A DNA stretch of 64,000 nucleotides, taken from Verpa conica. Taxonomy: Eukaryota > Ascomycota > Pezizomycetes > Pezizales > Morchellaceae. Shown here piece by piece: positions 19,920 through 63,799 of the stretch (position 1 is its first letter; each line of letters starts with the position of its first letter). Location of the stretch: assembly GCA_033030425.1 (NCBI GenBank), contig JAUFSD010000018.1, forward strand, positions 1-64,000, given 5' to 3'. The position numbers and the translations under genes were made by a program. The notes under the pieces are model-generated. The model saw only the letters and a list, made by a program, of their open reading frames with translations, was not told the origin of the DNA and ran no database searches.

Positions 19920-20071
19920 CAGAGGTTTAAATGGGCCGGCCCGGGCTCAAAACTAGGGTGGCCCGGCCTGGCCTAATAATTAATTTAGTATGGTGATTGC
20001 TGGCCCGGGCCACATAAAAGGTGGCTGGGCCGGCCCGAATTAATTAATGGGCCGGCCCATTTAAACCTCTG
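19920..20071. mobile_element. 152-bp hAT-like MITE, copy 1
   Basis: Perfect inverted ends CAGAGGTTTAAATGGGCC, length 152 bp, flanked by an 8-bp target duplication with one mismatch (attctaat left, actctaat right), as in hAT elements. The copy at 46971-47122 has the same length and about four differences, mostly C-to-T type. Confidence 0.85.
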
Positions 20072-22120: not shown

Positions 22121-22821
22121 TACGGGGGCCTGTATGACCCGAACCGCAACTAATATGTGAAATTGATATTATGACTAGTGAAAAGCGAAAATAAAAAACA
22201 AAAATGGGGGAATTGGTGATAATTTAACTATCAAATATTATAAAGTGATACTAAGGTTCACCTACTTCGGAAGTCATGATCAAAAATATTTCAAGTAAAA
22301 ATAATAAACTTTAAAAATTGCATCATTGTCTCCTAAAATACTAAAATTCTAATATAAGTTCCTTTGCTTAAAATAAAAGGCTCCATAACCCATAGTATTC
22401 AAAACCCCACTTGTAGATTTGAATCTACCTAATATGATTATTATAATGATTCTTCATAGACATGGCCCTACCTATCATGGTAGTTGGTATTTCCTTAGTA
22501 ATTATTTTCTCTGTTCTCAAAGATTTCCTTTCCCCCTTTTCCTTACCTAGAGTTTTACTTAGTGATTTTATTTTGATAATTTCACTCATTTTAATTTTTC
22601 ATTTTCGCTTTTCACTAGTCATAATATCAGTTGCAGTTCAGGACATACAGGCCTCCGTAGTACTAGCCCTGGCCTTCAATAAAGCAATAGATACGTTTAA
22701 AGCCTAGCTATGGAAATAGAAATATTTTGGCCATTGCCTATATAATAGAAAGCTTTCAATTTTGAATTCCTAATTTTACTTCGTATTGGTCGCTATGGGC
22801 CCCTGCATGTAGGCCTCCGTA
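22121..22821. mobile_element. Non-autonomous element with TACGGRGGCC ends
   Basis: The left end TACGGGGGCCTGTATGACC matches, over about 70 bp with mismatches, the reverse complement of an end at 22659 (GGCCTCCGTA). A further end at 22768-22821 contains ttggtcgctatgggcc and ends GGCCTCCGTA, closely resembling the right terminus of element 2 (63753-63793). The region is therefore a deletion derivative, or two overlapping relics, of the same transposon class. No matching 6-bp target duplication was found. The 81-codon hydrophobic frame at 22462-22707 lies inside and is not considered a gene. Confidence 0.6.
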
Positions 22822-38887: not shown

Positions 38888-38901
38888 CCACGAGCCAGAG
38901 G
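38888..38901. mobile_element. Left remnant and target duplication of the interrupted hAT-like MITE
   Basis: 38888-38895 reads CCACGAGC and 38896-38901 reads CAGAGG, the first six bases of the 152-bp MITE. CCACGAGC is found again at 47123-47130, right after the other end of that MITE. So 38888-38901 is the outer left flank of the MITE, separated from its body by element 1. Confidence 0.9.
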
Positions 38902-39168
38902 TACGGCAGCCTATACTTACAAAAGGGCAAATACAATTTCGGGAAATTTTTTTTTTTCTAATTGTAAACAAAACTAAAAATGTAAACAAACTAATCTTAA
39001 TCAAGAATGGTGTACTCTTTAGTTGATAAAAAAATTTCTTCCACTAACTATTTTTATCCACAAGATGACAACATGACAACATGAAAATTTTTACGGCTAT
39101 ATAGAAGCTTTCATACATGTATTTTGTACGACTTTTCTTTCTCACTCATACCTCAAAACCTATCAATA

Positions 39169-40505
39169 ATGACCAGCCGGTTCTGTCCCGAAAAGCCTGG
39201 CCTTCAACATCATACGCTTACAACCAAAGGCTGTCCTCATTGTGGTATATCACTTACTGTTCAATCAGAACAAAAGCTACAAGTGGTCAGTTTGCTTGAT
39301 TCAGATGACGAAAACCACCTTGAACCTCTTTCACCGATTATAGCTTCTCAAAACACTCCACCATCAGCACAGCTGGTACGAAAGCCATCAAACAATCGAT
39401 ATGGATTATTTGAAAACAAAACTCAAGTTGAAGAAGCACGATCAGCAAACTTTGCAACTGCTAAACGTACAGCTTCGGTCAACAGAGTTCCTGCAATGAA
39501 ACAAGGGGGTTTTGGCTTAGGCACTTACCAAAACACAATCAAGTCTCAACGATTAACAATTCTTGATATTTATATCGGACCACAAGGGCAAAAGCCATCG
39601 GAATATAAGAAACTTGGTAAAACTCTAAATTATATATTATATTAATATCAATACATACTTACTTAATTTAGATCCAATTAGTATCATGTTTCCGGATAGC
39701 AATGCATGGGAACTAAGTTTATCAAAATTTATCAAAAAGTATTTTATTGAAGATTCAATTGAACTTCAAAACTATTTTTCAGGTTTGAAACAACTGCCAG
39801 CCTGGGCTGCTCCGGGATTTCTGTCACCAGACGTTAGCAATACCCATGGTTTCACTCGTTTACCTCGTTCTGCTACCGATAATGGATTTTATATCAACAA
39901 TCTTTTAAAACACTTTCCGAAAGGTCGTATTGCATTAGTTTTACAGACTGAAGTTCCAAAAATCGAACCCGGTGATGAAACTTACTCTGCTCCAAAGCGA
40001 CGAGGACGGCCAAAAAAAACGGCGGTCAAAATAGAGAAAGATATAAAGGTGGATAAAAAGGAATCTTTGGAGTCAAAAGTCAAAATTAAACGAGAGAATG
40101 GAAAACGTAATAGGAGTATAGAAGTTGAAACAAAAGTAGTATAATAAAACCTCTACAAATTATACTAAGTATTAGCTAATTAGAAAATTAGGAACCTGAG
40201 TCTCCTACAGAAAGTTTTTTGACAGAAGCAAAACGTAGAAAAACAAGGAAACAGTTACCTTCTAGTCCAAATGGTACTATATCCAATTATAATCCAAAAA
40301 TATCAATAATAAAGCTAATGTTTTAACTATTATAGAAGAAACCACCGAACAAACGACAGATTTAGCAGCTGGAGAAAGGAATAGACTTACCGATATGTTA
40401 GAAAGTCTTGAAAATGATACGGAAGATGATATTGCAGGAATAGAAACACCACCAAAAGCACCAAAAGGATATGTATATGAGCCGATAGATTCGGATAGTC
40501 CATGA
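39169..40505 (+). CDS. Element 1 partner gene (zinc-ribbon N-terminus, basic C-terminus)
   Basis: Four exons: 39169-39616, 39672-40135, 40192-40273 and 40336-40505, all GT..AG, 1,164 nt, 387 residues. The N-terminus has MTSRFCPEKPG..GCPHCG, a possible small zinc-binding site. A middle stretch (NNRYGLFENKTQVEEARSANF) resembles the partner protein of element 2 (NQRFASHQIFQDAILAAKG). Later there is an AT-hook-like KRRGRPKK motif and a long lysine/glutamate-rich tail. This suggests DNA binding, in the nucleus. Because a homologue accompanies the related transposase at 57-64 kb, I infer a function in transposition, such as a DNA-targeting or end-binding subunit. It converges on the transposase gene. 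Not recognised as a named family. Confidence 0.75.
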
Positions 40506-40804
40506 GTTCAGTATTTAATTATGTATGTAATTATATAATTTTCTACCTAGAGTCTCAAAACACTATTATATTTAGCAACCACATATATAGTGTTTTTTTT
40601 AAAGCAATTCGAAGCAGTTTCTAGGCCAGTAAACCAGCTCCTGCCAGAGTTTAGACCTTATATTTAGTGAAGAAACTATTTCAATACAGTGATAACAAGC
40701 AGGGCTTTGTTAGCCGTACTGCAGTTAATTGAGTTAAATTTTGGCTATTAGAAGATTTTTAAAGCACAAACTCAACCCAGTCAGAGAATGGAGCAGTCCA
40801 GATG

Positions 40805-41077
40805 TAGTATTTATTTTGGGGCAATTCGAGAGCGGTTTCTGGGCCAATGGACCCACTCTGACGTAGGTTTGAGCCTGATTTTTGGTGAAAAAATCGCCCC
40901 AATAAAGAGATAACCAGCGGGGCCCTGTTTGGCCTACTGCAGTTAATTAAATTAAATTTTGGTTAATGGGAGGTTTTTAAAGGGCAAATCAGACCAGCCG
41001 GGAATGAGAGTTCGGGCGGTTTCTTGGCGCGGTTCCCTGGTCAGTCTGGGGGACCAAGTCCCCTGTGAAGAACACTA
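40805..41077 (+). mobile_element. 273-bp MITE copy inside element 1
   Basis: Starts tagtatttattttggggcaa and ends aagtcccctgtgaagaacacta; ends are imperfect inverted repeats. An inverted relative of 276 bp lies at 43641-43916 and a further diverged one at about 43232-43490. No coding capacity. Confidence 0.6.
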
Positions 41078-41221
41078 ATCATGCTTTCAGTTAAAGTAGT
41101 TTTGATCTTGTAGTTACAGACGTATATAACAGTATCCAAACACTAAAAAGAAGATTTTATTAGTTCACCGCATATAATAATATACTATGCAAATATAATT
41201 ACCTATATGATCTAATTTAAA

Positions 41222-43072
41222 CTATTCCTCACCTCCGCTTTCACCTTCAAATACTATTCTTTCCTCCTCATTATCATATGGTTGATTTAAACCACCTCTT
41301 TCAGCCAACCACGTGTATGCTCCGATTGGATTTTTTGTAAGTTCTAACGTAGGATTTATATTTGTTCTCATATGTATTCTTATTTTATCTCGTAGATATC
41401 TATTAAGTAGTTAAAAGATAATTAATATACAAAATAATAACTAGCAGCGGTTTATTACTTACAAATAGGCCTGAATATGTGTATCGCCACCATCTATTTC
41501 TCGTTGTTCAAGTGTAATTGGTAGATTGAAATGATTTGAAACCAAAAAATTTGTACACCAATCCCAAGTTTCTACCGGCAATATTATATCTGGATCTATA
41601 ATATACCAGTATTAGTATATTCAAGCATAATTCAATTTGAGTTAAATCGTTTATACCATAATCGCTAACACAGTTTTTTAAGTCTGTAAGTAATCCAGAA
41701 TGAGGTTTTGTACCATAGTTTTTCACTTGTGAATTTTTGATTTCGGGATATATATAATTCAGAATTGGTTTTCCTGGAACCATAAATGGTCTATTCCGTT
41801 GCTTTCGAATCTTGTGTATATTCCAAACGTGTGCAAAATGATAAATATGACTTCGAAGGATTGGTAGGTAAATGTACGCAATTGCTAGTCGGTCTGCAAT
41901 ACTATCTATATCTAGATAATTTTCACCTTTAAGTCGAGAAAAAAGACACTAACAATAGATTAGAATAAGACTGTAAAATTGAAAGAAGAGTTATAAAGTT
42001 TTTACTTTCCACATTTCCGATTGTCCTCTAGTCATCAAGTCCCACCAAGCTTCAATTCTTTGATTTCTCATTGACGTCCCATAAAGATGTGCTTTATTGA
42101 ATGGTAGATTATTATTACTATCATTCAATTTTGCAAATTGCCATTGAGCATTAGCTACTAATGGAGTTTCCGTCCCATGATCAGATCGGAGAAATCTGGG
42201 ACGAACACCACCTAACTCCAATGTAGTAATATATTGAGAAAGAATACCGATAGCGGTAGTTGCTGAAACACCAACATAAATCCAAACAATATATCTAGAA
42301 TAGCCATCAATAGCAGCATATATTTCAATTCCGTAGCTTTTGAACTTTAAGTGTCCATCAATTGACCAAACCCAATTTGGTCCTGGTACTCTATAATGTC
42401 CTTTATGGTTTCGGTGTCCATGAGTTCTCGCTGAAATACCAATCGGATCAAGTTCTCGCATAATTGAAAACATGCGATCTCGAGCAACTGGAATCCCTTT
42501 TGCTTTAAGATGACGGTACATATACTCACGACCATATTGCGCTGGTATACGGCTATTGAGTTCTAGACTAATTGCTTGTCGGAGAGTTTCGTTCGCACTA
42601 GAAATTGCTTCAATGCTTGTAATAGACCGTGAATATCCTAATTCCCGCCTAATACTTTGCATCCGACGTAATGCTATCGTGTATCCTAGTTTATTGAATT
42701 AGAAAATAAGTATTATGAATTGTTATGAACTTGATTATGTACCTTCTGATTGAAGTACGTAGAGTATCTCATCATCATTTAATGCCATGTGAGTAAGACA
42801 TACAATAATTCGTAGGCGGAGTTCTGGCGTATCTTTGGTATAGATTCGTTTTGTTAAATCCCATTGATGCAAAATGGATTTTAAAGCTCGTTCACTATAA
42901 TAAAATTATATATTAGTATATATATTCATTAAAAGATATAAACATACCTTGTTAAAAAGTCCTCGTTCTCAGCTAAGTACTTGACAATATCTTTAGCTGT
43001 CATATTTTGTATAATATACATATGAGTGATTGTATCTTTAAAAAGCTCAAATTGTTTCCGTGGCCGGCCCAT
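41222..43072 (-). CDS. Element 1 transposase, integrase-like DDE, 519 residues
   Basis: Six exons (43072-42948, 42894-42743, 42685-42006, 41948-41657, 41595-41463, 41399-41222), GT..AG throughout, 1,560 nt with an open frame. The start MGRPRKQFELFKDTI is followed by a helix-turn-helix-like region (residues 1-65) that resembles Clr5-type fungal domains. A second small helical region (about 75-115) precedes the catalytic core. The core has WSIDGH (Asp202), FLRSDHGTE (Asp261) and NQRIEAWW (Glu304), with RYIVWIYVG between, as in retroviral-integrase-fold transposases. It would cut and paste the element. The paralogue at 58.6-60.5 kb has all three acidic residues too. Similar proteins are known in fungi and animals; I believe they form the IS3-like group, not certain. 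Intact by eye. Confidence 0.85.
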
Positions 43073-43640
43073 CTTGTTGAGTTTAATGATGTAGCAATAA
43101 ACGTATGGGATTGATAGATGCTATGAAATGGTGAAAAATTTTCACTCTACTAGTTTAGTAGGATTAGTAAGAAATTTATAATCTTTTCAATGTCTATAAA
43201 AAAAACGAGAAAGAAATAATATATATTATAATAAGTATTTGTTTTGGGGCAATTTGAGTTGTTCCTGGAATAATAGATCTGCGTCTGCCCAGGTTCAGAT
43301 TCAAAGCTTGATTTTTGGTGAAATGGTTTTCTTATAATAGGTTTTATAGGAAACTCAATCACCCAAATTCTCGGGAAAGCCGCTCCAAACCATCACATTC
43401 TCTAATCAGATTTGGTTTGCCCTTTGAAAATCTTTCGTTAATCTTTCCTTTAATTTTGTTGGAATTAGAATTATAATTAGTGTCTGTTATGGGGGACTTG
43501 GCAATCTCTCCAGGGAACCGTACCAGAAAACTACTCCAAATCTCTCCATTCCTTGACTGGGCCGGGTTTGCCCTTTAAAAATTTGCCATTATCCAAAATT
43601 TAGCTCAATTAGCTATAGTGGTCCCAACGGGCCCCGTCAG

Positions 43641-43916
43641 TAGTGTTCGTCATGGGGGACTCGGTCCCTCAAACTCTCTGGGAAACTGCACTAAGAAACC
43701 GCCTGAACTGCCCCATTCCCCAGCCAAATTGGGTTTGCCTTTTAAAAATCCCCCATTAACCAAAATTTAACCTAATTAACTGTAGCGGCCCCAACAGGAC
43801 CCTGACAGTTATCCTCCATTAGAGTGACTTCTTTACCAAAAATCAGGCTCCGAACCTAGGCCGGAGCAGGTCCATTGGTCGAGAAACTGCCATGAATTGC
43901 CCTATAACGAATACTA
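43641..43916 (-). mobile_element. 276-bp MITE copy, inverted relative of 40805-41077
   Basis: Begins tagtgttcgtcatgggggac and ends attgccctataacgaatacta; its reverse complement follows the 40.8-kb copy through most of its length (ggttaatgggrg, gatttttggt, ccaatggacc). It lies between the transposase and dioxygenase genes. Confidence 0.6.
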
Positions 43917-44066
43917 CCCGCCAGTTATTCTCTATTAGGGCGGGTTTTAAACCAAAAATCAGGCCCCAAATACAGGCTAGGGCAAGTCTATTATCCTAGG
44001 AACCGCTTTGAATTGCTTCAAGACAAACACTATTTCTAATTAGTTTAAAATCAATTCTATAAAACT

Positions 44067-45308
44067 TTATTTCTGTTTATCCGACCAGACTTTTAAGTTT
44101 TTATCTGTCATAAAAACCATTGAGTACCGGTCGCCAGTTACCGGCAGATTATAATGAGATAACACTGCTGAACGAAAAACAATAATAGAACCAGAAAGAA
44201 ATGGTACAACAGAAAGCAGTTCCGAAAAAACCAACTCACCACCTTCAAAATCTCCCCAACAAATAATAATGCAAATTCCCCCTTTAATATCCCCTAAATC
44301 CTTATGAATCTCAGTTTTCACCAACTTATTAATAACTACCGCAGCAAACAGCCCAGCAAACTTGTGACAACCTTCCGAAACTTTGATAGATTTATAAATC
44401 TTATGGATTGAAGGGTAATTTTGAAGTATTAAACTTTCCAAAAATCCAAATAGACGGGAATTGGCTTTCTGAAATTTTTTGGCAGCCATGTAGTGTAAGT
44501 TATCTTTCCTTTTATAATGCCTACCAGAGAATGGTCCTCTGTAATGGGCAGTCATATAAGGTTTAAGAAATCTTCCTGATTTGTACCAGCAACCAAGAAT
44601 AATTGCGGTATAATTGCCTCTAACATGTGAATAATCATAGTTAGGAAATGATACGGCAGAATCATATACATTCCAAGAAGCAATCATTTCATCAAAAATA
44701 TCTGATGGTAATGTATTAAAAGGAAACAAATGAACCAACATAGTCCCTTTGGCATCAAGAAGTTTTAAACCATTGATAACCTCATCTCTGGTATAAACTC
44801 TATGAGTGCGAAGAACTTCTTGGGGGGAGCGTTGCAATATAAAACTTGGTTGTGATGTTCTTGTTCTTTTATTGAGAGAGGCTAGACTGATTTTGTTGGA
44901 AGGCGTCACTTTTGAAGTACTTGTTTGTATCCGTTGTAATTTTTGTTCCGTGGATTTATTTTTCTGTTTCTGTTTTTTCGCAGCTCTTTTTCTGCTAGTT
45001 TTGGATTTAGGAGCCGGTAGAGAAGACTTTTCAGAATGAGTATTAGAGGAAGAAACTGATGGTAATGTATCATAATGATATGCAGGATCACATTCCCAGT
45101 CTGGAGGACGAACAGGTGGGAGTATTGCTTGAAGATAAGCGAGGTTTTCAGATGTAAGTGTATTAGTAGGAGTACTACTACTAGATATTGACTCCTGATA
45201 TTCTCTATCCTCATCTAAACTAATAGCAGTACAAGTATCCAATTCTTCAGGAAGCAGCTGGTCTGATAAACGGAAGTCCTCAAAACACATTGAAACTGGT
45301 AATGTCAT
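44067..45308 (-). CDS. 2OG-Fe(II) dioxygenase, TET/JBP-like, transposon cargo
   Basis: Single exon, 413 residues from the first ATG at 45308 (MTLPVSMCFEDFRLSDQ); the frame is open without ATG for ~35 codons upstream into the tandem array. The N-terminal ~180 residues are S/T-rich with a basic nuclear-signal-like run (KTSRKRAAKKQKQKNK). The C-terminal double-stranded beta-helix core has an HxD pair (His335, Asp337 in EIHKDLGD), a CWGDFEGGELVF strand pair, a distal His385 (LSHYNLP) and Arg394 (GDRYS), the iron- and 2-oxoglutarate-binding set. The order and spacing fit fungal TET/JBP enzymes, which oxidise 5-methyl-pyrimidines in DNA and are known to travel with other (KDZ) transposons in basidiomycetes. 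A generic 2OG oxygenase (prolyl hydroxylase-like) is the main alternative. No DNA-binding CXXC domain is present. It shares orientation with the transposase, 1 kb downstream. Confidence 0.7.
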   Translation of the reverse strand: MTLPVSMCFEDFRLSDQLLPEELDTCTAISLDEDREYQESISSSSTPTNTLTSENLAYLQAILPPVRPPDWECDPAYHYDTLPSVSSSNTHSEKSSLPAPKSKTSRKRAAKKQKQKNKSTEQKLQRIQTSTSKVTPSNKISLASLNKRTRTSQPSFILQRSPQEVLRTHRVYTRDEVINGLKLLDAKGTMLVHLFPFNTLPSDIFDEMIASWNVYDSAVSFPNYDYSHVRGNYTAIILGCWYKSGRFLKPYMTAHYRGPFSGRHYKRKDNLHYMAAKKFQKANSRLFGFLESLILQNYPSIHKIYKSIKVSEGCHKFAGLFAAVVINKLVKTEIHKDLGDIKGGICIIICWGDFEGGELVFSELLSVVPFLSGSIIVFRSAVLSHYNLPVTGDRYSMVFMTDKNLKVWSDKQK

Positions 45309-45352
45309 TTGATTGAAATTGGGACAGCCGTATGGTGTAAATTGATCCGATC

Positions 45353-46575
45353 GAAACGGGAGTATGCTCAAAAGAACCGTCTTGTCGAGTAGGTACAGAA
45401 GGTACTCTGGAAGTATGGCTTCGCTGACTATAGGGAGTTTAACTGGGGAAAATAGTTAGTAACTATTCTAAAATAACTCAAAGTTGGGTGGGCGCATACC
45501 AAGTTCTTGTCTGATGGAGACGGGAGTACACTCAAAAGAACCGCCTCGTCAAGTGGGTCTAGAAACTACTCTGGGAAGACAATTCCGTTGAGTACTAAAG
45601 AATCAACTAGGTAAAATAGTTAGCAACTATTCTAAGACAACTTAAAGTTGGGTTGACGCGTACTGAGTTCTTGTTTGATAGAGACGGGAGTACGCCCAAA
45701 AGAACCGCCTCGTCGAGTAGGTCTAGGAACTATCTTGGAAAGACAGTTCCGTTGAATACTAAAGAATCAACTAGGTAAAATAGTTAATAACTATTCCAAA
45801 ATACTATAAAGTTGGGTGGACGCGTACTGAGTTCTTGTCTGATAGAGACGGGAGTACGCCCAAAAGAACCGCCTAGTCGAGTAGGTCTAGGTGGTACTTT
45901 GGGAGTATGGCTTTGCTGGCTATAGAGAGTTCAACTGGGCAAAATAGTTAATAACTACTCCAAAATCCTATAAAGTTGGGTGGACGCATACTGAGTTCTT
46001 GTCTGATAGAGACGGGAGTACACCCAAAAGAACCGTCTCGTCGAGTAGGTCTAGGAGGTATCCTGGGAGTATGGCTTTGCTGGCTGTAGGGAGTGCAACT
46101 GAGGAAAATAGTTAGCAACTATTCTAAAATAACTCAAAGTTGAGTGGGCGCATACCGAGTTCTTGTCTGATAGAGACGGGAGTACGCCCAAAAGAACCGC
46201 CTCGTCGAGTAGGTCTAGGGAGTACCCTGGGGGTATGGCTTTGCTGGTAATAGAGGGGTTCAACTGGGCAAAATAGTTAGCAACTATCTTCAAATAACTT
46301 AAAGATGGGTGAGCGTGTACTGAGTTCTTGTCTGATGGAGACGGGAGTACGCCCAAAAGAACCGCCTCGTCGAGTAGGTCTAGGGAGTACCCTGGGGGTA
46401 TGGCTTTGCTGGTAATAGAGGGGTTCAACTGGGCAAAATAGTTAGCAACTATCTTCAAATAACTTAAAGTTGGGTGGGCGCGTACTGAGTTCTGATCTGA
46501 TGGAGACGGGAGTAAGCCCAAAAGAACCGCCTCGCTGAGTAGATTTAAATGGTATCTTGGGAGTATATTTTTGTT
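45353..46575. repeat. 164-165-bp tandem array next to the right end of element 1
   Basis: The marker gacggg recurs with ends at 45360, 45524, 45688, 45852, 46016, 46180, 46345 and 46510, a period of 164 bp for six steps and 165 for the last two. Units contain ccaaaagaaccgcctcg and aaaatagttagcaac. The unit overlaps the 5' end of the dioxygenase frame. The minus-strand frame at 46051-46620 is open only because the last units are 165 bp; I do not call it a gene. The array may be promoter or subterminal transposase-binding repeat, which is inference. Confidence 0.9.
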
Positions 46576-46970
46576 AGGTATAAGGATCTCAATAAAATAA
46601 AACAAAGAATTCTTTGTCAATTCTTACTAAGCAGATGTACGCTGTGGTGACTGTGATTTACCCACAACCGAGTGGTATCTTCAGCGGTAGAGTAGATTCT
46701 CCAAAGTAGAGATAGTAAAGAAGAAGTGAACCAGTAGTAATCAAAAGTAATAGGTAGTCAATATATCGAACATGGCATTGTCCCAATGGTCTTGATTCCC
46801 GTACACTTGAAGCTGTGTGTAGATGATTAGGGGAATGAGGGGGTGATGGGGTGATGGTGTTTTGTGAGCTAAGCTGACTAAGGAATTCCTTGTTTCTGTA
46901 GCAACCAATAGTAACACTAAAAAAAAATCTCTAATTAGTATTTGCCCCTTTGTAAGAATAGGCTGCCGTA

Positions 46971-47122
46971 CAGAGGTTTAAATGGGCCGGCCCGGGCTCA
47001 AAACTAGGGTGGCCCAGCCTGGCCCAATAATTGATTTAGTATGGTGATTGCTGGCCCGGGCCACATAAAAGGTGGCTGGGCCGGCCTGAATTAATTAATG
47101 GGCCGGCCCATTTAAACCTCTG
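46971..47122. mobile_element. 152-bp hAT-like MITE, copy 2, interrupted by element 1
   Basis: Same ends (CAGAGGTTTAAATGGGCC) and length as copy 1 at 19920-20071. To its right is CCACGAGC (47123-47130); the matching CCACGAGC lies at 38888-38895, left of element 1, so the larger element jumped into the first six bases of this MITE and duplicated CAGAGG. Confidence 0.95.
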
Positions 47123-47462
47123 CCACGAGCACCACCTTTGTGGTATACTTTCGGTAATGGTTGCGAAAAGCCCCTCCAATCTATCATAGAGTAGGAACAA
47201 AGATTACTCCTGTCTAGCTATGGCATAGGGTTTATACGAATCTCACGGAAGAAGTGTGAGACGCATCATAATATTCATACAATTAAGGACATAGCCAGGC
47301 TGATGGGGCAGTCCGTCTGTCATAGACACCAGTACCTGACATCTACATACAATAGTCCGTCTACCCCTAGCTCAACTGGTCACAACGCGTGAAACACAAG
47401 GACTGGGCGAACTATAGCCATCTATATTGTACCAAGGACTGATTTTCATGGTGTTGATTAAG

Positions 47463-57463: not shown

Positions 57464-57689
57464 CCCCAGTACGGAGGCCCATAGCGACCAAGGCGAAGTA
57501 AATTCAGAGTGCGAGATTGTGGAGTTGTGAAAATTGAAATTGTGTAATTGTGTAATTGTGTTAGTGAAATTGTGAGGTTGCAGAGTGTCGCTTAGAAATT
57601 AGAATGTGGTTGCTTAGGTATGAGTATTTCTCTGACTGGGTGTAATTTTGAGCATGGGGTCCCGGAGACTCGCTTGCAGCAGGCTCAGG

Positions 57690-57830
57690 CCGGTAACATC
57701 CTACTCAGACCGCGAGCATCCCACTCAGACCGTGAGCATCCCACTCAGACCGTGAGCATCCCACTCAGACAGTGAGCATCCCACTCAGACCGTGAGCATC
57801 CCACTCAGGTAGCAACCATCCCACCTCCTC
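57690..57830. repeat. 20-bp minisatellite
   Basis: The unit gaccgtgagcatcccactca is repeated about five times with degenerate flanking copies. It sits between the left terminus of element 2 and the cargo gene, the same relative place as the 164-bp array of element 1. Confidence 0.85.
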
Positions 57831-57911
57831 AGTGCGCAACCATCTCACCTCTCTAGTGCACAACCATCATCGCTACACCACATCCTGCTGTACCAGTACC
57901 ACCAACACTCA

Positions 57912-58514
57912 ATGTCCAAATCTACCCAGTTCCTCCATTCTAATGCACCCTATGGTTTTAAAAAGGATGGCACTCCCAGGATGAGGCGTGCTCCTGGTAC
58001 AGGGCCCCAGTTTAAGGGGAAAACCTCTAAGCCCCTTAAAGCGCCTGCACCACCACCACCTACCTATCAATGCCCCACCAACTGTGGGCTCAGCTTTGCA
58101 GATACTAAGGATCCACAAAATTCTCTGCTAGTGCATGTGAGGTACAAGGCTAAAAAAGGCTGTGAGCTACACCAAACTGAGCTTGATAAAATAGTGGCGG
58201 CCAGAATAACTGATTGTAAGTACAATAATACTTTTTTTAAAAATATTACTAATAAAATCTATATAGCTGAGATACTTAGAGCAAGAAAAAACGCACGCCA
58301 GAGAAGATATAGGAAAAAGAATTTAGAATGGGTTGAGTATAGAAAAAAGCTTTCCCGTGGAAGGGAAAAGGCAAGAGAAATACTTGGAGCTGGTGGTGGC
58401 AGGGAAATGAAAGAAGAAGTAGAAGAAATGGCAGAGGAATTTGTTGAGAAGTGGGATATAGAGTTGGAAGCAAAAAAATTGAAAGAGAATCCGGAAATCA
58501 TTGTGATTGATTGA
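57912..58514 (+). CDS. Element 2 cargo: basic protein with possible zinc-binding motif
   Basis: A single exon of 200 residues, ATG at 57912 (MSKSTQFLHSNAPYGFKK). The first 55 residues are K-, R- and P-rich; next comes CPTNCGLSF..HVRYKAKKGCELH, a C-x3-C..H..C-x2-H layout that might bind zinc in a non-standard way. The remaining part is helical and highly charged (RARKNARQRRYRKKN, then KEEVEEMAEEFVEKW), likely a coiled coil. A nuclear, nucleic-acid-binding protein is plausible. It is inside the element but has no counterpart in element 1. Not recognised as a family. Confidence 0.65.
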   Translation: MSKSTQFLHSNAPYGFKKDGTPRMRRAPGTGPQFKGKTSKPLKAPAPPPPTYQCPTNCGLSFADTKDPQNSLLVHVRYKAKKGCELHQTELDKIVAARITDCKYNNTFFKNITNKIYIAEILRARKNARQRRYRKKNLEWVEYRKKLSRGREKAREILGAGGGREMKEEVEEMAEEFVEKWDIELEAKKLKENPEIIVID

Positions 58515-58618
58515 TAGATAGATAGATATTGTTATAAGTTTTTTCTATTTAAATAAATATTTTTATTCACTAGTAGCTTGAGTACTTATTATCTGCCCTA
58601 AGTACTAACGTTAACGTA

Positions 58619-60490
58619 CTAGTAATTATCATCCTCCTCTCTAAGCCTATCAACAATGTGAATATACTCTGGTTCCATATTATCTAAATAATTATCACTT
58701 TCAAGCTCTCGAGTTACCGATACGTACGTATTTGGCGTCCAGTTATAAGTCTTTTCCGGTTTTTGACATAGTAGAAGAGTTCCTCCAGTTTGAAGGAACT
58801 GATCTGCAAGTTGACGCAGATATAAATATGCAACACGATGGACTGGTGTAGAGGAATCCTCCATCTGCATACTAAATGTAATGGGAGTTTGTATTCCAAC
58901 ATTGTGAAGTTCTTGTGAGCACCAGCTAAGCGTAGCTGTAGGAAGATATTCGTTTGGATCTAGTAGAATATTAACAGCTATCCAAATATAAATTAATATT
59001 GATAAAGTTAAAGTTTACCATATTCCTCCACATCTACCATTAGTCGGTTAAGAGTACTTTGATCGGGTACAAGACCATAGTCATTAATACCAGTAGGAGG
59101 ATCGTGATATAAAAGTATAGGCTTTCCCGTTGGTAATGCAGGGCGGTTTTTTTGATATCGAATGGTATGTGCATTCCACAAATCGACAAATTCGTACACT
59201 TCCTGTCTTACCATTGGCAAGTATACGTACAGCATAGCTATTTGATCTGCAAAGCTTCCTGTATACTCTCCGGCATCTCTCATACTATCAAAAAATGTCT
59301 ATCAATTATAAATTAGCTTATTATTTTAACTTTGTAAAGTATAATATTTACCTTCCATACGATTGTTTGGCTTTTACTCATTTGGCGCCACCAAGACTCA
59401 ATGCGCTGGTTCAATACAGATGTACCATACCAGTACACGTCAGTAAGCTGTACACTAGGATTGAGCGCAGTGTGAAGTTGAAGATGTGCATTAGCCATCA
59501 TGGTAGTTTCACTACCCCGATCAGAGCGAATTGTGAATGGTAATGTATTTGTAGTATCTATTAGGTCCAAATATTGCCGTAGAATTGCAACCCCTGTTGC
59601 AGCGGATATTCCTACATGAATCCAAGTAATAAATCTAGAATCATAAATTTAGTTAATTCTATAATATGAGTCAAACTATAGCTGCTCGGTACAGACAGTG
59701 CGCTTACCTTGAATAAGCATCTATTCCGGCATATATTTCAATACCATAATGTGTCAATTTATGGTGTCCATCAACTGACAACACACGGTTCGGACCTGCT
59801 ACTTTAAAGATTCCACGGGGTACATTTTGTTGTCCAAATTGCCGTTCAGTAACTCCAATTGGATCCAACTCCCGTAAAATCTCATACATACAATTACGAG
59901 CAACCGGAATTCCAGACTGTTTTAATTTGTAATAGGAAAGTCGGCGACCATAGAGTACATTTTGTCCAGATGCAAGTTGTTCCTGCAATGCTACCTGCAT
60001 TATCATATTATGCTGTGGGATATTGGCTGCATCCGTACGACGTCGCATGCCAAGTGCCAGTCTAAGCTGTCTCATCCTATATAAGACATGCATTAGTAGT
60101 TGTTTCATTTATGCATAAATAACAAAACATACTGTCGTAGACTGATTTCAAATCCATTACGGCTTAAAAAACTTAGAATTTCGGCATCTCTTAATCTATA
60201 CTGGTAAAATAAACGCCACATTATTTTTTCAACTCCGGTTCCAGCCAGCAATAGAAACATCTGATGCTTGCGATAACCCCATTTGTGTAGTGCATTTTGC
60301 ATTGTACGGGAATTAGGGTATGACGTAGAACTGCTTAGAGCTGCGGGGCCCATTGTGGTAACTTCCGGATATAATGACTGTAGTTGAGCAATTGTATCCG
60401 ATAAAGTATTATTTTCAACAATATACCAATACCAGATTACATACCGGTATGGTTCTAGTGCAGTATAAGCTGGTCGGCCGGAGGATGATA
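58619..60490 (-). CDS. Element 2 transposase, integrase-like DDE
   Basis: Homologue of the element 1 transposase with introns at comparable places. Parts: about 60490-60150 (SSSGRPAYTALEPYRYVIWY, N-terminal helix-turn-helix), about 60076-59706 (MRQLRLALGMRRR to LSVDGHHKLTHYGIEIYAGI), 59640-59355 (FITWIHVGIS, TIRSDRGSE, NQRIESWW), 59297-59020 (TFFDSMRDAGEYTG) and 58985-58619. The catalytic Asp-Asp-Glu set is present (SVDGH, RSDRG, RIESW). No ATG precedes the first part in frame, so an upstream exon or a lost start must be assumed. It is divergent from the partner gene; the ~120-bp space between them would hold a shared promoter. Confidence 0.75.
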
Positions 60491-60615
60491 TAGTTGATAA
60501 AACTTGATAGTTATAAAAAATAAGATAAATAGAAGAGGATTGCCCGTACTTATATACTTTTTATTTTACATAATTAATTTCTCAAATTAATTTTTGCCTT
60601 TATTATATCTCTATT

Positions 60616-63600
60616 ATGTCTTTACAACGTCCATCAATCAATCACTATGACCTTTATTGCTCTGGTCCAGAATGTGTACATCTTAAACCTGAGATAGCAG
60701 CTACAGGCCTTTTTTCCCATCTTCAGGTTGAACACATACCATATCCATTTGGAATACCGGAGCGCTCATGTGATACCTGTCATCAAATACAACCATACCA
60801 ACACATTACCCGAACTAATCAATATGGCAGCCCGTCAGTTAGTTTTACTAGGGATATACCCAACAGGTATTTATCCTATAAATTATTTAATTAATACTTA
60901 CATTTAACAATTAAAGTGCTATTGATCCAGAACTACAACCTTCTTCTCAGTCTTTATACCCTAGTATTTCGACTGCACAGCAAAAAGCATCGGGTACCAT
61001 ACCTACATCAGCAAAAACAAAGATTCCGCCCCGCTCTCCTGGAGAGCGGGGCGAGCGGGGCGACGATTTTGCAAACCTACCCTCCCACAGGTGCTTTATG
61101 CTGCACGTCATCTCCGGGAGATCTCAGGGCGGACGCTAGCAGTCCGGGAGATGCCGGGAGAGTCTCAATAAGAGTAGAACAAAAAGTTGCGTCTAGAAGA
61201 GTCTCAATTCTCTATTCTCTATTTTCTATGTTCTATCTAATCTATATACAAGAATATACCTGCTTTGCTGCCTCCCCGCTGCCCCCTCCCGCTTGCCCCG
61301 CCGCCTGCCTGCCTGCCGCTGCTGCGCTAGAAGGCAGCTCAACGTCCAGTCGACGCGTCGGACCAAGGGTGTTCGTACCTGAACGGGTAGGTTGTTCGCT
61401 TGGTGGCCCGGGGGCTGCTGAAGGCTGCTGGGAGTTCTGCTGGGGGTTTTCTGGGGTCACGTTGACGCGTCGGACACGGGAGGTTTGTCTCGCCCCGGGT
61501 TCATTGTTTGCTCTATAGGAGAAAGCCTGCAGCTGTTGCTGGAGGGGGTCTGCCTGGGGGTCTGCCTGGGGGTCTGCTCGAGGGTCTGCTTGAGGTCCAT
61601 AGACGTGTAGGACATGGAGGATTTGTACCGTGACGGGTAGGTTGTTCGCTTTATAGGAGAGAACCTGCCTATTCCCCACCCCCCCGCCTGCCTGCTTGCC
61701 TGCTTGCCTGCTTGCCTGCTTGCCTGCCTGCTTGCTGCCTGCTGCCGCTGTCGCGCTGAGAGGCAGCTCGACGTCCAGTCGACGCGTCGGACCAAGAGTG
61801 TTCGTACCTGAACGGGTAGGTTGTTCGCTTGGTGGCCCGGGGGCTGCTGAAGGCTGCTGGAGGCTTGCTGGGGGTCCTGCTGCAGCTGTCGCGCTGGAGG
61901 TCCTCTGGGGGTCACATTGACGCGTCAGACATGAGGTGTTCGTACCGGTACGGCCGCTGGGGGGGGGGCTACTGCTGGCGGTGCTATAAGGCGCTGTTCT
62001 CAATAGTTAGCATAGGTTCATAGAGTGGTAGTGAGTGGGTGGGGGGTGCTGGGGGAGAGGGGTTGCAGGCGCGTTAATGTGGTACGGCCGGGTAACACCA
62101 GCACCTCTCCAGGAGACTGGGGGCGACGGTCCCTCGCCCGGGTGCTGAGGGGTCGGCAGCGCTCTCCAGGAGAGCGGGGCGAACTTTCTCCGCCTGGGCG
62201 ACAAAAATCTCCCGGAGAGTTTTTTTTTTTTTGCTGATGTAATCAACGCTTCGCCAGCCATCAAATTTTTCAAGATGCAATTTTAGCAGCTAAAGGTAGT
62301 CCAAAAGTAAGTCAATTAGCTATTGGACGTGGCTTTCCTCCTATACGAACACAGCACACCAATTCCAAATACCAAGCACAAAGTCAAGGTCGAGGTCGAG
62401 GTCGAGGTCAGAAACATAGTCAACAGAACCATGATTATACCATACCATCTATACTTCCATCATCAACTCTAAATGAATGGTTGATTAAGTTATTAGTAGC
62501 TGAAGTACATCCGAACACAAGTTTTAGTAAGAGGATATTTCGAGAAAGTGTTGATTCAGAAGTATGGCGTCCTTCAGAAGCTCTTTTGAACAAAGTTATT
62601 CCCAGTGGAGCCCGCGAATGGAGTAGATTTTTTGAAGAAAACCTAGTCGAAAATATTGGGTTATGGCAAAGAGAGTTTTCCCGTCCTATACATAATGATG
62701 GACTTGGATGTAAGTTTATTTTATACATTCTTTATAATAATATCTACAATTACTGATAACTAGTTTTTTATAGGGATTTGGATAAGCAAAGTCTATCTGC
62801 TTAGTTCTTGGAGTAAGCGACTAGGTGGTGTAAGACTACCTGAAGCCGAAACGCAGGAAACTACTACTTTAAAAGCAATTTTAAACAACTTTTTCCCTTT
62901 TTCGCAGCATAAAAAAATAGATACTCCTATTGTCTATATTGCAATTGAATATGAATATAGACTTTATTCCAATAACACGGAAGAATCAGAGCTATCATTA
63001 CAGTTAGTATCTCCTCATTATCGATAAACTTGTAAGTATACTTGTTACTCATATAATACATTCTAGTACTCAGCCAAAAATTAGCCCTCATATAGACGAT
63101 GAAATACCGGTACAAGATAGTTACATTGAGCTGGACACTGAGATTGATGAACCAGATCTTTATGTGGAGGAGCAAAGAAGTAGTTTGCTTCCTATAGATT
63201 TAAGCGAATCTCCCGATACTACATTATTCCTAGAAACTTTACCCATTGCAAAATCAATACCGCAATTGATAGCAGAACAATTAGGAACAGGAAAAGAAAT
63301 ATCAAATAAAGTAAGTAAAACTTTTAATTCATATTTAAAGAATAATTACTAACTTAATTTAAATTAGCGTACTCATTCTGATATTGCTATCTCTTCAAGC
63401 CCTCCAAGTAAATATAGTGGCAAAGTACTGGCGACTGCATCTCTTTCCGGAAAAGAGAAATCAGGTTCTATTATAAAAAGAACACGGTCTGGTACACGTA
63501 CTATTAAAGATATTGGCAGTACTAGTAGTGTTATTATAGATAATATCTCAAGTGGCTCGGCTATTAGTACTACTACTATTATGACCAGAAAACGTAGTGC

Positions 63601-63640
63601 TAAAAAACACGGGAAAGGGGAAAAGACAGGATCAAAATAA
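60616..63640 (+). pseudogene. Element 2 partner gene, interrupted by an insertion
   Basis: Exon 1 starts MSLQRPSINHYDLYCSGPEC at 60616 and holds paired C/H residues (CSGPEC..HLQVEH, CDTCHQ), possible zinc fingers. An intron at about 60870-60918 joins it to SAIDPELQ.. The exon is broken at 61005 by the 61006-62239 insertion; after it the same frame resumes at QRFASHQIFQDA and goes on through an RGRGRGQ run, LPSSTLNEWLIKLL and PSGAREWSRFFEENL. Further exons, separated by gtaagt-type introns at about 62710-62773, 63032-63068 and 63310-63367, end at a basic S/T-rich tail (stop 63638-63640). It resembles the element 1 partner in overall plan. With the insertion the product would be truncated after about 120 residues. 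Confidence 0.65.
61006..62239. mobile_element. 1,234-bp TA-flanked insertion in the partner gene
   Basis: Flanked by TA (61004-61005 and 62240-62241). The ends CATCAGCAAAAA and TTTTTGCTGATG are inverted. Interior is G+C-rich: palindromes ctctcctggagagcgggg near both ends, two ~430-bp direct repeats (61300-61500 and 61750-61930, marker gtcgacgcgtcggaccaag), and a run of cctgcttg repeats. No transposase frame is seen, so it is non-autonomous. TA duplication is typical of Tc1/mariner-type movement, but the source family is unknown. Its cctgcttg run and hairpins recall the 1-6 kb repeat block. Confidence 0.8.
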
Positions 63641-63799
63641 TATTGGGTATATTGGTGGACTGGGAAATTGTGGGTTTTTATTTTTGTAGGCTTTTCATTT
63701 TTTCATTTTTTCATTTTTTCATTTTCTCATTTTCTCACAATAAAAACAACCAACTCTGAATTTACTTCGCCTTGGTCGCTATGGGCCTCCGTACCCCAG

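Follow-up and report, generated by a model that had tools for sequence, protein, structure and literature searches.

The locus raises the question of whether a transposon in an ascomycete carries a DNA-oxidising enzyme of its own and, if so, what that enzyme would do there. A first-pass annotation had described positions 38902-46970 of the window (contig C18:1-64000, the whole 64,000-nucleotide stretch analysed here) as a DDE transposon that had captured a TET/JBP-like dioxygenase and could thereby escape host silencing. The present analysis, for which the genome searched comprises 45.8 Mb in 25 contigs, partly supports that interpretation as a whole.

Boundaries and coding content of the transposon

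The window segment 38902-46970 is confirmed as a bounded DNA transposon, with genes running from left to right as ORF1 (plus strand), transposase (minus strand) and TET (minus strand). The features of the element and its surroundings are as follows.

38896-38901: left target-site duplication CAGAGG, from sequence
38902-38953, plus strand: left terminal inverted repeat (TIR), first bases TACGGCAGCCTATA, from sequence, arm comparison and a random-pair test
39172-40144, plus strand: accessory ORF1 with a probable intron, open stretches 39085-39645 and 39629-40144
40587-41080: nested copies of a dispersed MITE, a ~280-bp unit with inverted ends, from repeat searches
41508-43072, minus strand: gene for an IS3EU-type DDE transposase, spread over several open pieces, from PF24764 rva_4 and residues D, D, E
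43473-44033: nested copies of the dispersed ~280-bp MITE in opposite orientation, from repeat searches
44067-45308, minus strand: open gene for a 413-aa 2OG-Fe(II) dioxygenase of the TET/JBP type, from Pfam, profiles and residues
45349-46542: 164-bp tandem array of 7.3 copies, between the 5' end of the TET gene and the right terminus
46919-46970, minus strand: right TIR, last bases GCCGTA, from sequence, arm comparison and a random-pair test
46971-46976: right target-site duplication CAGAGG, from sequence
46971-47122: 152-bp MITE hit by the element's insertion, flanked by an 8-bp duplication of its own (ccacgagc, 38888-38895 and 47123-47130)
57470-63793: second IS3EU element with no TET match, with a perfect 41-bp TIR, a minus-strand transposase and an ORF1-like gene

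The CAGAGG duplication is an exact match between left and right, and the termini, TACGG..CCGTA, are inverted repeats of 52 bp. The arms 38901-38953 and 46919-46971 are 85% complementary, the outermost base of each being part of the flank. Aligned locally, the two 60-bp ends score 68, compared with a maximum of 28 in 2000 random 60-bp window pairs, which places the inverted repeat well beyond chance. Removal of the element together with one CAGAGG leaves the 152-bp MITE intact with ccacgagc on each side, and an uninterrupted copy of this MITE at window 19920-20071 is identical to the split copy at 148 of 152 positions, so that the restored MITE shows the empty site directly. The MITE is palindromic, with ends CAGAGGTTTAAATGGGCCGGCCC, and its 8-bp duplication is of a length that we take to be hAT-like. 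The earlier description of a bounded unit holding termini, a 6-bp duplication, a transposase and a 2OG oxygenase is borne out by the ends, the duplication, the empty site and the Pfam matches.

The core of the transposase lies in the pieces 41991-42698 and 41508-41948, with a start near 43072 judged by eye. Two open pieces match PF24764 rva_4 over the Pfam cut-off (E 1.6e-18 and 3.5e-7), the rve match falls under the cut-off, and the catalytic triad is kept as D114, D173 and E216 in the numbering of the main piece. The transposase has no match to the KDZ family in Pfam, its matches being to rva_4 and rve, in agreement with the first-pass reading of an integrase-fold DDE enzyme unrelated to KDZ. 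Judged by sequence, the termini, the duplication and the transposase fit membership of the IS3EU superfamily, for which termini of TA..TA and the duplication length are given in PMC10045372; the element has TACGG..CCGTA ends, the 6-bp CAGAGG duplication, a TIR longer than 30 bp and a transposase of the IS3/integrase-type DDE class. Ends of this kind are frequent in the genome, with 66 matches to the pattern TAYGGNNGCCTRTA versus 11 for the reversed control, and a short element at window 22121-22659 with the IS3EU-type ends TACGGGGGCCTGTA / TACGGAGGCCTGTA is probably a MITE.

ORF1 shows a weak AT-hook in Pfam (E 0.18, under the cut-off) and no further Pfam match at E 1 or better, and a search with its first stretch indicates that it is single-copy in the genome. 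The earlier statement that each gene is open holds for the dioxygenase, while the transposase and ORF1 are in pieces that are presumably split by short introns. Rfam, searched with the window and three loci, and NCBIfam returned no match, and PHROGs returned weak matches, the best (1.1e-5) to a family labelled as of unknown function.

The repeats include the dispersed ~280-bp MITE, with ends like TAGTGTTCGTC, which has at least 46 genome matches with visible unit ends (L027-L045 among the loci) and also adjoins the Helitron TET gene on contig C23 described below. All eight genome matches of the 164-bp repeat in a DNA search lie inside the element's array, which could be transposase-binding or regulatory. 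The start of the contig (window 1-6000) is G+C-rich, purine-skewed and repeated, and is possibly subtelomeric.

The dioxygenase and its relatives in the genome

The window dioxygenase is a member of the TET/JBP family, an assignment reached through profiles of the genome's own family, as the single-sequence score is weak. The best Pfam match of the 413-aa protein is Tet_JBP, with E 7.7e-4 and 19.2 bits against a cut-off of 34.9 bits, and the 248-aa domain alone, at 21.1 bits, is likewise below the cut-off. The first-pass annotation had named a better-scoring non-nucleic-acid family as grounds for refutation, and no 2OG family in Pfam outscores Tet_JBP for this protein. A single-sequence PDB search placed a Piwi chain at the top with an insignificant 0.31 and CcTET at E 1.9-2, and a two-sequence profile of the window protein and its C23 relative gave no PDB match. 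The genome search for the family found 12 places, from which nine sequences (the window protein and eight others) were aligned, leaving out L011 (an N-terminal piece only) and two near copies, L016 of L012 and L019 of L018. All nine match Tet_JBP in Pfam, with two also weakly matching 2OG-FeII_Oxy_3 (best 0.0026) and one matching WelO5 (0.16). Searched against PDB, the nine-member profile has CcTET (1.5e-9) and NgTET (1e-5) as its leading matches, followed just by threonine aspartases at 0.75-0.99, and a seven-member profile without the window and C23 proteins finds solely CcTET (2.7e-8) and NgTET (4.3e-8) at E 1 or better. The profile of the window and C23 proteins in turn aligns with the seven-member profile in hhalign at 98.6% and E 9.4e-16. 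The TET/JBP-type oxygenase proposed to lie inside the unit is thus upheld as the best Pfam match and by the profiles leading to CcTET and NgTET.

The iron and 2OG residues of the window protein are intact, comprising HKD (H170, D172), a distal H220 and R229 in the numbering of the 248-aa domain. HxD is present in all nine aligned members; among the other eight, the distal H is missing in L014 and the R in L017. In a weak pairwise alignment, a Cys occupies the position of CcTET Asp337. Single-sequence fold prediction gave a pLDDT of 37 and no usable fold.

No second full copy of the window element family was found in the genome, the runners-up being a transposase of 48% and a dioxygenase of 56% identity. 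The element's termini recur at just two places, C4:2170862 and C24:621305-621859, the latter being too short for any gene. A sister IS3EU family is present twice on contig C11. The copy at C11:1011003-1016641 has termini TACGGGG..CCGTA and a 7-bp repeat GTTACTT, and the second, at C11:1349705-1364060, has a left end that now reads TACAG and a 6-bp duplication GACCGG. The two are 94.4-96.9% identical in four aligned pieces, and in both, sequences of a transposase, ORF1 and TET follow one another in that order. The C11 transposases have in-frame stops, some of which may be accounted for by introns, and in the second copy ORF1 and the TET gene are cut by three later insertions (one an LTR retrotransposon by eye), so that this copy is dead.

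The IS3EU element at window 57470-63793, which looks young, is flanked by a CCCCAG duplication at 57464-57469 and 63794-63799 and has no TET match inside, and its movement in this state argues that TET is dispensable for the movement of IS3EU. Its ORF1 is related to that of the C11 family (E 1.4e-14), and no homology to it was detected for ORF1 of the window element. In a hand comparison by which divergent TETs could be missed, a TET match lies within 15 kb of three of the ~20 transposase loci. The first-pass annotation would also have been refuted by other copies lacking the oxygenase, and on this point the answer is divided: no other full copy of the element itself was found, the sister C11 family has TET at both sites (one broken), and the 57470-63793 element has no TET match.

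The TET nearest in sequence to that of the window lies at C23:97581-98624 and is 65% identical over the 248-aa domain. This gene is open, encodes HxD and is carried by a Helitron (L010, L077; about 91-100 kb of C23). It follows the Rep and PIF1 helicase of the Helitron, which are in several open pieces, and the hairpin and CTAG that come after it resemble a Helitron 3' end. The C23 and window proteins also have in common a stretch ahead of the TET core. As the TET of the C11 IS3EU family is just 30% identical to that of the window, the relationships among the TETs do not appear to parallel those of the transposons, as judged from identities without a tree. Between the window and Helitron TETs, dN is 0.31 and dS a saturated 3.0 over 246 codons, and a dN of about one-tenth of the saturated dS indicates selection on the TET protein. 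Two divergent TET/JBP genes, L013 (C23:805 kb) and L019 (C5:1217 kb), have a weak Pif1-like match and a hAT dimerisation domain as neighbours and may belong to further TET-carrying transposons.

Host methyltransferases and the proposed role of the enzyme

The genome contains three PF00145 methyltransferase matches. The match at C2:1568111 has LEQT at motif VI, and the EQT triad is peculiar to Masc1/RID proteins (PMC6709928). By this triad the gene is RID/Masc1-type and points, as one gene, to a Pezizomycotina host, in agreement with the ascomycete host named in the first-pass annotation. The match at C8:1156569 is presumably DIM-2-like, and the third we take to be DNMT5-like. Composition indices show no RIP signature in the window element, where the CpG ratio is 0.73 compared with 0.75 in the surrounding window. 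The two C11 copies differ at 175 of 5655 aligned bases, with C->T or G->A changes numbering 101 towards the second copy versus 42 in the reverse direction, and of the 135 transitions whose neighbouring base is clear, 42 fall at CpG. The C->T lean of the second copy fits cytosine decay in an old copy and falls short of proof of methylation.

The element is probably a Pezizomycotina IS3EU cut-and-paste transposon whose TET/JBP cargo oxidises 5mC laid down by the host and relieves the silencing or mutation of the element. The transposase would move the unit, and the TET would oxidise the 5mC placed on it by the RID/Masc1- and DIM-2-like methyltransferases, so that relief from silencing or mutation could help expression of the transposase gene. 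As the TET family oxidises methylated DNA in other organisms, the element may unlock its own silenced DNA, and self-demethylation against silencing would be the likeliest function of the TET on the basis of its sequence.

An unlikely alternative is that the TET-like enzyme, instead of demethylating the element, hides or marks it by another DNA modification, such as the oxidation of 6mA or of thymine or a bulkier mark on cytosine. The distance of the window TET from characterised TETs, seen in the single-sequence result for CcTET, is consistent with such an activity, as is the Cys in place of Asp337, a residue of CcTET needed for 5mC activity according to PMC12730594, which also provides precedents for other modifications in CMD1 and JBP. 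The intact iron and 2OG residues argue against this reading, as does the fact that most characterised relatives named in the same source act on 5mC. It is rather improbable that the TET gene travels as a passive passenger, bringing the transposon no gain. The scarcity of TET matches near the transposase loci and the broken TET in the second C11 copy are what a passenger might leave, yet the dN/dS of about 0.1 relative to the Helitron TET (with dS saturated) and the repeated carriage of TET, in two IS3EU families and in a Helitron, favour a gene that is of use. An accidental nesting, with the transposase belonging to an inner transposon or the oxygenase being a chance insertion between unrelated termini, is highly improbable and draws on the ~500-bp inverted repeats on both sides of the transposase gene, but these are several copies of the dispersed MITE with its own ends (on which ground an inner transposon around the transposase was rejected), transposases of the same family are enclosed by termini of the TACGG..CCGTA type, both in the C11 copies and at window 57470-63793, and TET recurs within the same kind of IS3EU unit.

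Comparison with published systems

The pairing of TET with IS3EU, which the first-pass annotation had thought undescribed, is already published: Kojima 2025 (PMC12730594) reports TET-carrying IS3EU elements in seven rust (Pucciniales) species and one Tuber indicum family, and the window copy is a variant. In open-licence literature, no other report of TET in IS3EU was found among the matches listed, as judged by titles and abstract starts. The available text of PMC12730594 also describes TET-carrying Helitrons in Pezizales, transfer from superfamily to superfamily and an anti-silencing proposal. The window element extends this recently published pattern of transposons with their own DNA-oxidising enzyme, adding an ascomycete HxD form whose gene is open.

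The rust elements (PU type) resemble the window element in their 6-bp duplication, TIR longer than 30 bp, TAYGG..CCRTA termini and HxD, the form of the non-PE types. They differ in that their TET has the transposase on one side and an alpha-kinase in opposite orientation on the other, an alpha-kinase being described beside TET in all TET-carrying IS3EU (PMC12730594), whereas the window element has the order ORF1-transposase-TET and an ascomycete host. No alpha-kinase was found in the ORF1 pieces by Pfam, and PF02816 was silent genome-wide in a search without a working control. The Tuber indicum element, IS3EU-1_TuIn, has in common with the window element the IS3EU superfamily, an ascomycete host and TET/JBP cargo. 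As described in PMC12730594, it is of the PE (ascomycete) type, with the hallmark HxE and a TET domain that has lost a large N-terminal part, and by that description is set apart from the window TET, in which HxD and the stretch ahead of the core are kept. The window TET thus lacks the mark of the PE type, having HKD and not HxE, and, with Cys at the Asp337 place in the weak alignment, lacks that of the AG type as well.

The TET-carrying Helitrons of Pezizales are likewise reported as PE type with HxE, whereas the C23 Helitron, which also carries a TET, the one closest to that of the window, encodes HxD in common with an IS3EU element. We raise tentatively, at somewhat less than even likelihood, a further HxD-type class of transposon TETs in Pezizomycotina, distinct from PE, that circulates between IS3EU and Helitron in one genome as an anti-silencing module. 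This one genome offers a ready test set, in that it contains IS3EU elements both with and without TET, a related enzyme carried by a Helitron, and a RID/Masc1-type gene alongside two further PF00145 genes.

The TET/JBP-carrying KDZ transposons of basidiomycetes, as cited in PMC12730594, are also DNA transposons with TET/JBP cargo and differ from the window element in transposase superfamily. The closest solved relatives by profile are CcTET of Coprinopsis cinerea (7vpn, 8jkk) and NgTET (5cg8, 4lt5), which have in common with the window protein the residues H, D, H and R, although identity is very low and Asp337 of CcTET is not conserved. Set against these known systems, three features may be new: an ascomycete IS3EU with a TET of the HxD type, the way its genes are arranged, and the presence of related TETs in an IS3EU element and a Helitron of one ascomycete genome.
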